DNA from: Candidatus Dormiibacterota bacterium
GTDB taxonomy: Bacteria; Chloroflexota; Dormibacteria; Aeolococcales; Aeolococcaceae
NCBI GenBank assembly: GCA_003132525.1
Contig: PKXZ01000049.1
Span: 92,727 to 144,005, forward strand
Length of the DNA stretch: 51,279 nucleotides
Direction of reading: 5' to 3'
Positions 15,746 through 21,382 of this stretch are shown here, piece after piece (position 1 is the first letter of the stretch; each line of letters starts with the position of its first letter). A program made the translations under genes and the position numbers. The notes under the pieces are model-generated. The model worked only from the letters and a program-made list of their open reading frames with translations. It ran no database searches and was not told the origin of the DNA.

Positions 15746-16723
15746 TCAGGCGGCCCCTGCCGCGCCGTCGCGACGTTTCACGGCGAGTGCCGAGATCGCC
15801 TCGAGCAGGCAGCGATGCGCGTTCTGCGCGGTGATCTCGGCCCAGTCGTAGGGCGGTGACACCTCAACGACGTCCATGGCGACGATGTCGGTGCGGAGCA
15901 CGATCTGCCGAATCGCGTGGAGCAGATCGACCGGTTGCATACCACCTGGCTCGGGCGTCCCAGTGCCTGGCGCGAACCCGGGGTCGAGCACGTCGATGTC
16001 GACCGAGAGATAGATGTACTGCGGTCCGTCGAGCGCTTGGGCGATCGCGTCCTCGATGACGGCCGCGACGCCCCGATCACGGAGTTCGCCCATCAGGTGC
16101 CAGCGCATCCCCTGGTCGCGCATCCACTCGAACACGTCCTTGGGCGGCCAGTACCCGCGCAACCCGACCTGCACGAAGTTGCGGCCCGAAACCGCGCCTG
16201 ATTCGATGAGGCGGCGCATCGGTGATCCGTGGGAGTACAGATTTCCCCAACTGCTGTTGCCGGTGTCCGCATGGGCATCGAAGTGCACGATCCCGACGCT
16301 CCCAGGCGAATACGCTGCGGCAACCGCGGTGGCCGACGGCCAGGTGATGGAGTGGTCGCCGCCGATGACCATCGGGATGATCCTTCGCTGCGCGACGTCG
16401 CCGACCCGCTCGCGGATCGCCGCATGGGAAGCCTCCGCCAAGCCGGGCAGGCAGAGGGCATCGCCGTAGTCCACGACGCGCAACACCTCGAGCGGCGCAA
16501 CCTCGAGCTCGAGGTGCCACTCGGCGGCCTGGTACGACGCGGTGCGCACACTCCGCGGTGCGAAACGGGCGCCGGGGCGGTAGGTGACGCCCTCGTCCCA
16601 GGGTGCCCCGACGATTGCGACATCGGGCTTGACATCGTCGAGCTGAGCGGCGCTCGTCAGGAGCGGCACCTTGCAGAACGTGGTCGGGCCGAGGTATGCA
16701 GGCCCGTCGGCAGCGTTGTCCAC
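15746..16723 (-). CDS. speB: Agmatinase/ureohydrolase family protein
   Basis: GGDHSITWPSATA, HFDAHADTG, SVDIDVLDPGFAPGTGTPEPGG: ureohydrolase Mn-binding motifs. Exact substrate unproven. Confidence 0.82.
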   Translation of the reverse strand: MDNAADGPAYLGPTTFCKVPLLTSAAQLDDVKPDVAIVGAPWDEGVTYRPGARFAPRSVRTASYQAAEWHLELEVAPLEVLRVVDYGDALCLPGLAEASHAAIRERVGDVAQRRIIPMVIGGDHSITWPSATAVAAAYSPGSVGIVHFDAHADTGNSSWGNLYSHGSPMRRLIESGAVSGRNFVQVGLRGYWPPKDVFEWMRDQGMRWHLMGELRDRGVAAVIEDAIAQALDGPQYIYLSVDIDVLDPGFAPGTGTPEPGGMQPVDLLHAIRQIVLRTDIVAMDVVEVSPPYDWAEITAQNAHRCLLEAISALAVKRRDGAAGAA

Positions 16724-17565: not shown

Positions 17566-19419
17566 TCAGGACCAGCGCCAGTTCTCCGGGTAGATCTGGA
17601 GGAGCGGATCCTGCGGGCCGGTGCCCTTCAGGTCCTTGTTGATCTCCGAGAGCTGCGCATCCGCAACCGGCAGCCAGATCACTGGGAGCTGTGCGGCCAG
17701 GTAGTTCTCGTAGGTATAGAGCGTCGAGACGCTGTTGCTGTCCTCAGTCGCAACGATGTCCTGCTCCGCCTGCGCGTCGCAGTAACCGCCGGAGTCCGAG
17801 CCCGCGTACTGGACGCTGGCGCCGGAACCGGTGCACGACCACAGCTCGTCGCCGGTCGGGTAGTAGTCAGGGGCGTAGATCCAACCACCACCCCAGAACT
17901 CCATGTCCCACGTGCAGGCCTGCCCGGTCTTGCACGGGATCGCGTTCCCGATCACCGTGTCGAAGGGCGCGGACGTCAGATCGATGGCGATGCCGGCCTG
18001 CGCGAAATCGGTCTTCAGCTGTGCCATCTCCTGGTCGAGCGAAGGCTGACCGCTCTCGTACTGGAGGCTGAAGGAGGCCTTGGCGCCCTGAGGAATTCCC
18101 GCGCCGCACTGGCCGGTGCCGGTGCCCGGGCTGGTGCACGTGCTCACACCGCCTGAATTGACTGTCCACCCGTTGGCCTGCAGCAGCGACCTTGCCTTGC
18201 TCGGGCTGTAGGGGTAGGGATTGCTCCTCTCGAACGAGTCGACGAACGTCGAGGACGGCTTGGTGGGCACCGGGCCGTATGTCGGGTAGGCGTACCCGAA
18301 GAACGCCTTGCTGATGAAGGTGTTCTGGTCGATCAGGTCCTGCATCGCCTGTCGGAAGTAGAGCTGCTTGAAGATCGGGCCGCTGGTCGGGTTGGTGAAG
18401 TTCTCCGGGAAGAACAGGACCTGCCATCCGATCCAGGGCTCGAAGTTGTAGGCGCTGTTCAGCGAGCTTTTCTGCAGTGCGTCGTTGGCGGGGAGATAGC
18501 CGTAGTCGACGGTGGTGTTGGTGACCGAGGTCGCCGCCTTGAGCTGGTTGAACTCGGCTCCCGCCTGCGTGAAGGGAACCTCGTTGAACTGGGTCAGAGT
18601 CGGCTTGATCGGTCCGCCGTAGCCGGGATTCGGGACCATCGAGACGTCGCCCGCGGTGTCCATCGACTTCAGCTTCCACGGTCCGTCGACGACCTGCCAG
18701 AGCGGGTTGGTGTCGTAGGTCGAGATCGACTTCGACTGCGCATCGAGGAACTTGAACACTGCCTGCGCGCCGGCCGGGGTCTCGTCGTAGTTACCGACTG
18801 GACCGGTGGCCGACTCCTTGTCCCAGACCTGCTGGGGCAGTGGGGTGATCTGGCTCAGCTCGTTGTAGGTGAAGAAGTACGAGCCGTACGCCTGGCTGAG
18901 GTTGAAGGTGATCTGCAGCGGGTTGCTCGGGTTGATGGTCGTGCTCAGGACGTTGTCCGGGTACTCGCCAGGCGAGTAGCCGGCCCAGTTCTCCTTGTTG
19001 GCGGTGACCAGGTTCTGCCAGAACTGGATGTCACGGGCGGTGATCTGGGTTCCGTCCGACCACTTCCATCCCTTGAGGGTGATGGTCACCGACTTGCCGT
19101 CCGCGGAGTAGACAGGGGCGTCGGCGAGGCTGAGGCTCGGGTTGAGCTGCACCTGACCGTTGTCGCCGAACCAGTAGAGCGGCCGGTACATCAGGTACTG
19201 GAACTGGCTGAGGTTCGCGACACTGAAATAGGCGAGTGACGCGAGCGGGAAGATGTAGTTCGGCTGCGACCCCGGACCCTCGGCGAACGTCGCCGTGGTC
19301 TTGGTGACTGCCGGACCCGTGCTGGAGGGGCTGTTGCTCCCACAGGCGGCGAGTACCAGTACTCCGAGTCCCGCTGCGGCGACGACGCTCCTCCGTCCCA
19401 ACATGCGTTTCGACGCCAT
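17566..19419 (-). CDS. ABC transporter substrate-binding lipoprotein, SBP_bac_5 (peptide/nickel-type) family
   Basis: LVLAACGSNSP lipobox; WKWSDGTQITARDIQFWQNLV, QLNPSLSLADAPVYSADGKSVTITLK family features; AGGAGAT RBS upstream of ATG 19419. Confidence 0.88.
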   Translation of the reverse strand: MASKRMLGRRSVVAAAGLGVLVLAACGSNSPSSTGPAVTKTTATFAEGPGSQPNYIFPLASLAYFSVANLSQFQYLMYRPLYWFGDNGQVQLNPSLSLADAPVYSADGKSVTITLKGWKWSDGTQITARDIQFWQNLVTANKENWAGYSPGEYPDNVLSTTINPSNPLQITFNLSQAYGSYFFTYNELSQITPLPQQVWDKESATGPVGNYDETPAGAQAVFKFLDAQSKSISTYDTNPLWQVVDGPWKLKSMDTAGDVSMVPNPGYGGPIKPTLTQFNEVPFTQAGAEFNQLKAATSVTNTTVDYGYLPANDALQKSSLNSAYNFEPWIGWQVLFFPENFTNPTSGPIFKQLYFRQAMQDLIDQNTFISKAFFGYAYPTYGPVPTKPSSTFVDSFERSNPYPYSPSKARSLLQANGWTVNSGGVSTCTSPGTGTGQCGAGIPQGAKASFSLQYESGQPSLDQEMAQLKTDFAQAGIAIDLTSAPFDTVIGNAIPCKTGQACTWDMEFWGGGWIYAPDYYPTGDELWSCTGSGASVQYAGSDSGGYCDAQAEQDIVATEDSNSVSTLYTYENYLAAQLPVIWLPVADAQLSEINKDLKGTGPQDPLLQIYPENWRWS

Positions 19420-19500
19420 GTGTATCTCCTCAGAACAACCTCCACGAATCCTGACGCGCACGATACGTAACGGCTACGCGCGATCAAAGAGTTCTGGACG

Positions 19501-19785
19501 AAATTCACTCCAACGGGTGATGAAGTAGTTCGGCGCAACCTGCAGAATGGCTCGGCGGCTTTCAGCGAAAGTGGTACGGGGAAAGGGATTTCGTATTCGC
19601 GTCGTGGGTGCGTTCGCGCCCACCACGGAGCTCAGGCAATCGCTCCAATGTGGTGCACGCGCGAAAAATCATTCTGATGGGTGATGAGTAGTGGCCTGCA
19701 AACGCACAAAATGGCACGATGCGATTCGCGCAAAGTGGCTTGGTGGAATGGCCGTTCTCGAATGCGCGGAAGTGGTACTCGCGTT
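19501..19785. promoter_or_regulatory. Candidate MocR/PdxR-type operator array: three AATGG-N18-AAGTGG direct-repeat units
   Basis: AATGG at 19546, 19710, 19747, each with AAGTGG exactly 23 bp later (19569, 19733, 19770), in the divergent intergenic region between the SBP and MocR genes. Confidence 0.6.
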
Positions 19786-19909
19786 TTGCGCGCCGCAACG
19801 TCAGGCTGATGGTGCCTGGCCGTCGGAGTGACGTGAGTCTCTGCCCCACGACGCCTCTGGCGTCGCCTCGTTGTTCACCGGCGGCCAGGCACTTCCGACG
19901 CTCGTTTCC

Positions 19910-21382
19910 ATGAAGACCGCGCCGAGCGCCGGACTCACTCCATACATCCCATTCGATCGTGCGTCGGGCGTGCCGTTCTACACGCAGATCTACGACGGCT
20001 ATCGCATGGCAATTCTGAGCGGACGGCTTGGGCCCGGTCAGCGGCTTCCATCCACCCGCACACTTGCCGCCGAGCTGCAGATCTCGCGCCTTCCAGTGCT
20101 CAACGCGTTCGAGCAGTTGCTCCACGAGGGATATCTCGAGGGCAAGGTCGGTTCTGGGACGTATGTCCGCGACTGTATCCCCGATGAGGTCGCGAGGCCG
20201 ATGCGACTCCGCCGTGCAATGCCGCCCACCCCCAAGCGGCCCTTCGTGGTCACGCCGAGCCCGCGTCGCAGCCGGCGCGACGATGGCTCGGGAGTCTTCA
20301 AGAGCCTCCCAGCCCTTGATCGCTTCCCCAATGAGACTTTCGCGCGGCTCACCCGGCGGCACGCGGGCCGGCTCAGCGAGGACCTGCTTGCCTACGCCGA
20401 CCCGGGAGGGTACGCGCCGCTCCGCGACGCGATCGCGGCGTATCTGCGCACAGCTCGTGCAGTTGACTGCGACCCCGACCAGGTGATCGTCGTGTCGGGA
20501 TCACAGATGGGCCTCCGGCTCGCCGCGATGACCCTGGCCACGCCGGAGTCGATCGCCTGCATGGAGGATCCCGGCTACCGCGGAGCGCGATCGGCGCTCG
20601 CGGGTTCAGCGGCGAGCATCGCTCCGATCGCCGTCGACAGCGACGGAATCGACGTCGCCGCGATCGCCCAGCTCGGGGAGCGCGCGCGGCTCGTCTACGT
20701 GACTCCCTCGCATCAATACCCGCTCGGCGTCTCGCTCGGGGTCTCGCGCCGTCTCGAGCTGCTCGGCTGGGCCGAACGCAACGAGTCATGGATCCTCGAG
20801 GACGACTACGACAGCGAGTTCCGCTATTCGAGCCGGACTCTCGGTGCCCTGCAGGGAATGGATACGGGTGACCGTGTCATCTATCTCGGCACCTTCAGCA
20901 AGGTGCTTTTCCCGGCGCTGCGCCTCGGATATCTGGTGGTCCCGCACGAGTTGATCCCGAGGTTCATCCGAATGCGCGAGGCGCTCGATCTCTTCTCGCC
21001 GCTGCTCTATCAACTCGTGCTCACCGACTTCCTCAGGGAAGGGCATTTCGCACGGCACCTGCGCCGCATGCGTGCGATCTACCTGGCCCGCCGCAACGCT
21101 CTGATCGCCGCCATCCGTGAACATGCCGGCGATGTGCTGACCATCGAGAACACCGACGCCGGACTGCACCTGGTGACTTTCATTCCCGAGCACGTCGATG
21201 ACCTGGAGGTGGCGAGGCGCGCGGCGGATCACGGCCTGTTCCCGGCGCCGCTCTCCGCCTGCTATGCGACGGCCCCGCGACGGGCCGGGCTCATCCTGGG
21301 ATTCGGCGGCGCCAACGAGCAAGTCCTCACCGAAGGAGTGCGAACGCTGGCCGGGCTCGTCAGGGACTGCCGCCAGCCCTAG
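19910..21382 (+). CDS. MocR/PdxR-like GntR family regulator with aminotransferase-like domain
   Basis: wHTH: GVPFYTQIYDGYRMAILSGRLGPGQRLPSTRTLAAELQISRLPVLNAFEQLLHEGYLEGKVGSGTYV; aminotransferase-like domain with EDDYDSEFRY and YLGTFSKVLFPALRLGYLV (PLP lysine). Confidence 0.92.
   Translation: MKTAPSAGLTPYIPFDRASGVPFYTQIYDGYRMAILSGRLGPGQRLPSTRTLAAELQISRLPVLNAFEQLLHEGYLEGKVGSGTYVRDCIPDEVARPMRLRRAMPPTPKRPFVVTPSPRRSRRDDGSGVFKSLPALDRFPNETFARLTRRHAGRLSEDLLAYADPGGYAPLRDAIAAYLRTARAVDCDPDQVIVVSGSQMGLRLAAMTLATPESIACMEDPGYRGARSALAGSAASIAPIAVDSDGIDVAAIAQLGERARLVYVTPSHQYPLGVSLGVSRRLELLGWAERNESWILEDDYDSEFRYSSRTLGALQGMDTGDRVIYLGTFSKVLFPALRLGYLVVPHELIPRFIRMREALDLFSPLLYQLVLTDFLREGHFARHLRRMRAIYLARRNALIAAIREHAGDVLTIENTDAGLHLVTFIPEHVDDLEVARRAADHGLFPAPLSACYATAPRRAGLILGFGGANEQVLTEGVRTLAGLVRDCRQP

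Follow-up and report, generated by a model that had tools for sequence, protein, structure and literature searches.

The window, the whole stretch of 51,279 nucleotides analysed here, contains a gene for a MocR-type regulator (P0001, 490 aa; 19910–21382, plus strand) and a divergent gene for an extracellular solute-binding protein (SBP) of the SBP_bac_5 lipoprotein family (617 aa; 17566–19419, minus strand), the proposed target of regulation. The two gene starts (19419, minus; 19910, plus) are separated by a gap of 490 bp. Besides the SBP gene, the genes around mocR encode a HAD hydrolase, an agmatinase-type protein (15746–16723) and an acyl-CoA ligase. Neither an ABC permease nor an ATPase was found beside the SBP gene among the window ORFs tested, in agreement with its initial annotation as an orphan. 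No pdx family was recognised among these ORFs either, and an Rfam scan of the window matched a tRNA alone. A consensus promoter scan of the intergenic region returned zero sites above threshold; below it, a putative SBP promoter was read by eye on the minus strand (19460–19487), consisting of TTGATC (19487–19482), a 16-bp spacer and TATCGT (19465–19460).

The regulator carries an N-terminal GntR winged helix-turn-helix domain (PF00392; 53.3 bits, cut-off 27) and a C-terminal fold-type I, class I/II aminotransferase-like domain (PF00155, Aminotran_1_2; 67.8 bits, cut-off 19.7). The lysine forming the Schiff base with PLP, K331 in FSKVLFPALRLGY, is kept in this protein and in the MocR of the related genome G006. 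The two domains and the lysine of the window protein bear out the first classification as MocR-type. The top-scoring NCBIfam family is rhizopine_MocR (462.7 bits, under the cut-off of 650), and the protein also scores above the PdxR cut-off (439.7 vs. 320). The same lysine is replaced by serine in a paralogue from the same genome (contig C12, L036:4241-5692; FSKVL to FSSVL) and by threonine in the G002 orthologue (L035:6026-7480; FSKVL to FSTVL), most other conserved residues being kept in both. A more distant MocR in G014 apparently has aspartate at this position, as read by eye. With the lysine lost from two of the three closest relatives, the C12 paralogue and the G002 protein, PLP sensing is no general feature of the group. 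For the window MocR, which has kept it, an involvement of PLP is plausible, and amines are a reasonable first guess for the effector because of the agmatinase-type gene nearby.

The part of the gap next to mocR contains an 81-bp inverted repeat (19812–19892, no strand assigned) that had gone unnoticed in the initial annotation and folds as a hairpin with a z-score of -4.8. Its sole convincing relative in 11 genomes is an element of about 80 bp in the C12 MocR-SBP locus (L036:4122-4201), whose terminal stem shows two compensatory changes. The block is absent in G006, to which the draft state of that assembly could contribute. The segment 19800–19905 was also considered as a dispersed repeat and rejected as such: BLAST finds only the segment itself, and searches with a core pattern and a covariance model add one C12 homologue. 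With this single homologue the hairpin is not a common mobile repeat; the candidates are an mRNA leader hairpin and a mobile-element relic.

Direct-repeat units in the divergent gap

Three units of 29 bp with the form AATGG-N18-AAGTGG lie between the SBP gene and the hairpin. The AATGG halves begin at 19546, 19710 and 19747 and the AAGTGG halves at 19569, 19733 and 19770, all inside the 490-bp gap and exactly where they had first been located. The 23-bp phasing originally given to them is exact as the distance between AATGG and AAGTGG; counted in register, between the TGG of one box and that of the other, it becomes a period of 24 bp. Each unit reads CCACTT...CCATT on the minus strand, with this period. 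The predicted operators are unit 1 (19546–19574, minus strand; CCACTTTCGCTGAAAGCCGCCGAGCCATT), unit 2 (19710–19738, minus strand; CCACTTTGCGCGAATCGCATCGTGCCATT), which is identical in G006, and unit 3 (19747–19775, minus strand; CCACTTCCGCGCATTCGAGAACGGCCATT), whose CCACTT half is the best conserved island in common with the C12 paralogue locus.

The exact pattern has three matches in the 3.2-Mb genome, every one of them in this gap, and a reversed control pattern has none. Because the pattern was picked post hoc, the shuffle test searched for any 5-N(8-40)-6 pattern present three times; the real region has one, as opposed to none in 1000 dinucleotide shuffles of the 490 bp. The three units are not explained by chance. 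A unit profile run over 13 genomes gave strong matches solely at the MocR locus of G000 and G006 and no convincing further regulon member, the own genome included, which is the pattern expected of a local regulator.

Support for the family of this regulator comes from 80 homologous MocR loci of many phyla (best segments 38–55% identical), in which the 250 bp upstream of mocR were examined. Of the 80 regions, 30 contain CCAYT...CCAYT as a direct repeat spaced 23 or 24 bp (shuffle expectation: mean 0.3, maximum 2, 200 rounds), and none contains it at a spacing of 22 or 25 bp; the loci are not independent, since many related pseudomonads are included. The repeat also occurs in Acidobacteria, Chloroflexi, myxobacteria and others. 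Operators of the MocR family lie close to the gene and consist of direct repeats at a distance of two or three helical turns; the window units, with their 24-bp period, are of this kind. The same period is found in the published moc-boxes, 11-bp AAAGYGGYTCT direct repeats with 13 bp between them located 5′ of mocB (PMC10107442). From the homologues and this shared period, it is concluded that the three units are very probably MocR operators, and the suggestion that they fit MocR-family binding has gained ground in both sequence and spacing. Two observations count against this assignment or the interpretation built on it. The repeat faces mocR itself in 29 of the 30 homologues, whereas the window units face away from it. 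Furthermore, an inverted third box is common in MocR operators, and none was seen by eye at the units.

The nearest relative with a mocR gene, G006 (94% MocR identity), has kept the array. Identity between the two sequences amounts to 32/33 positions in the boxes, 44/46 in the palindromes described below, 50/54 in the spacers and 172/225 in the remainder (with blocks placed at random, p is about 0.03 for the boxes and 0.04 for the palindromes). This conservation is supportive but not strong, as the two genomes are close and the significance for the boxes is modest, a point that weighs against the preferred explanation. The SBP gene of G006 has been cut down to short remnants beside the HAD gene (L034:6567-6730), by a recent deletion or an assembly collapse, and the retention of the upstream boxes despite this loss likewise counts against control of the SBP. 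In the same genome, unit 3 ends directly ahead of the mocR start codon. In G001, the neighbouring genes are kept, mocR is a C-terminal remnant and the SBP gene is absent from the locus. The more diverged loci in C12 and G002 show repeat spacings of 22 and 25 bp instead of 24, which also speaks against the preferred explanation.

Interleaved palindromes and recurrence of the MocR-SBP pair

Interleaved with the units are two palindromes of the pattern TCACCC-N4-GRRTGA-WTTT, which were likewise missing from the earlier description. Copy A (19501–19523, minus strand; TCATCACCCGTTGGAGTGAATTT) is a putative response-regulator operator, and copy B (19665–19687, minus strand; TCATCACCCATCAGAATGATTTT) lies 164 bp upstream of it. 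Their minus-strand sequences are TCACCCGTTGGAGTGAATTT and TCACCCATCAGAATGATTTT. A distance of 45 bp separates each palindrome from the point where its unit starts, and the block of palindrome and unit is duplicated at an offset of exactly 164 bp. With the promoter read by eye, the centre of copy A would fall at about -60 from the putative SBP start site, a position typical of many activators.

A 24-bp palindrome, AAAWTCACCC-N4-GGGTGAWTTT, recurs 5′ of solute-binding lipoprotein genes throughout the family (L144-L173). Allowing one mismatch, 13 of 25 relatives match the palindrome pattern and the reversed control has no match. With the exception of a few unassigned ones, the sites precede SBP_bac_5 or Peripla_BP_4 lipoprotein genes, mostly with no mocR nearby. 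In G011, the palindrome is flanked on one side by an SBP_bac_5 gene and on the other by a divergent pair encoding a HisKA_3 kinase and a NarL-type regulator, and in G013 and G009 it adjoins the same two-gene system. Every genome of family f1 with the palindrome also encodes a regulator that shares at least 73% identity with P0006; G010 and G012, also of f1, have neither. Relatives from the other family encode regulators just 52–60% identical to P0006 and lack the palindrome, and G004 has a P0006-type regulator with no palindrome at one-mismatch stringency. No palindrome was found within five mismatches near the response-regulator gene of the own genome, located on contig C34, or near that of G005 or G014. 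As the system is unlinked to the sites in these three genomes, the assignment rests on co-occurrence and on the linkage in G009, G011 and G013, which together suggest that the palindromes are probably operators of a NarL-type response regulator of the P0006 type.

The MocR-SBP pair itself recurs. In the paralogous C12 locus, MocR and SBP are 56% and 80% identical to the window pair, and SBP, palindrome, unit and hairpin follow in the same order and orientation, with mocR flipped. The sequence 5′ of the SBP gene is mostly unalignable with the window, but colinear islands remain: the palindrome with 82% identity across 22 nt, the unit with 89% across 19 nt (CGAATGCGCRRAAGTGG), and the core of the hairpin. 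In G002, a MocR of 62% identity adjoins an SBP_bac_5 gene of a different subfamily, and between the two genes lie palindromes as well as CCATTGG repeated at a distance of 25 bp. Both loci are preceded by a gene of the sigma-70 family (ECF) with a SnoaL-like extension (L036:5917-6939; L035:7788-8813), presumably of ECF41 type, which the window locus lacks. A divergent MocR/SBP_bac_5 pair followed by ABC permease genes is also found in G014 (L181:5129-8824), with a palindrome present. No CCAY direct repeat was found in the divergent gap of this pair, which counts against the preferred explanation. Separately, some genomes of the sister family (G035, G040 and G038) contain at least 30 matches to the window SBP, a large SBP_bac_5 expansion.

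These loci bear on whether the units could serve the autoregulation of mocR alone, with the SBP gene run by the palindrome-binding regulator alone. Such a division would account for the near-identical boxes of G006 despite the deleted SBP, for the position of the repeat at mocR's own promoter in most homologues, and for the palindromes 5′ of many SBP genes without mocR. It is nevertheless unlikely: the window boxes face the SBP gene, and in C12 and G002 the repeats lie downstream of mocR, between mocR and SBP, and thus cannot be the promoter of mocR. That the elements follow the SBP rather than mocR is the main reason for naming the SBP as target. Since the units point towards it, and since the order of palindrome and direct repeat precedes SBP genes beside two diverged MocR genes, the SBP gene is likely controlled through the units. 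Control of this gene by the regulator, as first proposed, is thereby supported at the level of sequence by the box orientation and by the C12 and G002 loci.

More improbable still is that units and palindromes form a single operator array of one regulator, with MocR bound to direct and inverted repeats. PdxR is reported to shift its preference between the two repeat types on PLP binding (PMC5320631), palindrome and unit recur together at the exact 164 bp offset, and they are found together in three MocR-SBP loci. Against this, the palindromes precede SBP genes that have no mocR neighbour, occur in genomes without a close MocR (G015), and track, among the f1 genomes, the regulator at least 73% identical to P0006. 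The palindrome as an inverted repeat of MocR itself was therefore rejected as the main reading, given its occurrence without MocR. Finally, it is very improbable that the units lack a regulatory role and reflect chance or the decay of a tandem duplication some 164 bp long. Two units lie inside the repeated segment and may share descent, but unit 3 lies outside it, the boxes have been preserved where the sequence between the common elements diverged, and homologous MocR loci from other phyla carry a matching motif.

Regulatory interpretation and relation to known systems

The explanation that is probably correct is that the three units are sites of the adjacent MocR, which likely controls the SBP gene, and that the palindromes belong to another regulator, most likely of NarL type. 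A head-to-tail MocR dimer would hold CCACTT and CCATT, the two direct boxes, which at a distance of 24 bp lie on the same helix face, and its PLP-bound effector domain would sense an amino compound and probably activate the divergent SBP gene. MocR probably also represses itself, as suggested by the end of G006 unit 3 right before the mocR start codon. A NarL-type response regulator on the palindromes would set the general expression of SBP genes across the family. If the palindromes belong to a different regulator, a general and a local signal would meet at this promoter. What the analysis demonstrates is the sequence of the elements, their uniqueness and conservation, the match to a family-wide motif and the recurrence of the gene pair; binding, dimer mode, direction of regulation, effector and identity of the palindrome-binding protein are inferred.

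A wider and tentative reading is that the intergenic region works as a composite promoter, where a duplicated SBP_bac_5 gene comes under the joint control of a NarL-type two-component system found across the family and a MocR recruited locally. Cassettes of MocR and SBP would then have spread and diverged in the genus, including some MocR proteins without the PLP lysine, which must sense something without a Schiff base.

The closest described counterpart is the rhizopine MocR of Sinorhizobium meliloti L5-30, which activates the divergent solute-binding-protein gene mocB (PMC10107442). The initial annotation had regarded such a pairing as undescribed, a view that does not stand, as mocR and mocB already form a divergent pair of regulator and solute-binding gene that carries such boxes. 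The two systems share the divergent arrangement, AAAGYGG-type direct repeats and the 24-bp period. They differ in that the window protein falls below the rhizopine MocR cut-off, with no rhizopine catabolic cluster recognised, and in that the window carries three units where the rhizopine system has a single one, with interleaved palindromes probably belonging to a second regulator. MocB is a sugar-type binding protein, whereas the window SBP belongs to SBP_bac_5. MocB is able to use the membrane subunits of another transporter (PMC10107442). The regulators of MocR regulons bind direct boxes with a TGG core, one or several helical turns apart, and some of these regulons include transporters; the reconstructed motifs comprise two to four boxes, compared to six boxes in three units here (PMC5320631). 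The PdxR box named in the initial annotation agrees with the motif AAAGTGGW(-/T)CTA of Corynebacterium glutamicum (cited in PMC4494728). PdxR has the AAAGTGG core in common with the window units, and P0001 scores above the PdxR cut-off. In contrast to PdxR, the window regulator has no pdx genes among the neighbours tested, and its likely target is a solute-binding protein.

Control of a solute-binding gene by an adjacent MocR through AAAGTGG-type direct repeats is thus already known from mocR-mocB. Different here are the number of units, which is three, the SBP family, the fact that the units point away from mocR, and the second element interleaved with them. The MocR/solute-binding arrangement of rhizopine use is thereby extended to another lineage and to a binding protein of the peptide type. 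Paralogues that retain the PLP lysine and paralogues that lack it form a natural test of the Schiff-base requirement of MocR regulators. The palindrome, in turn, marks a candidate family-wide regulon for the binding proteins of ABC transporters and provides a testable family-wide operator for solute-binding genes.
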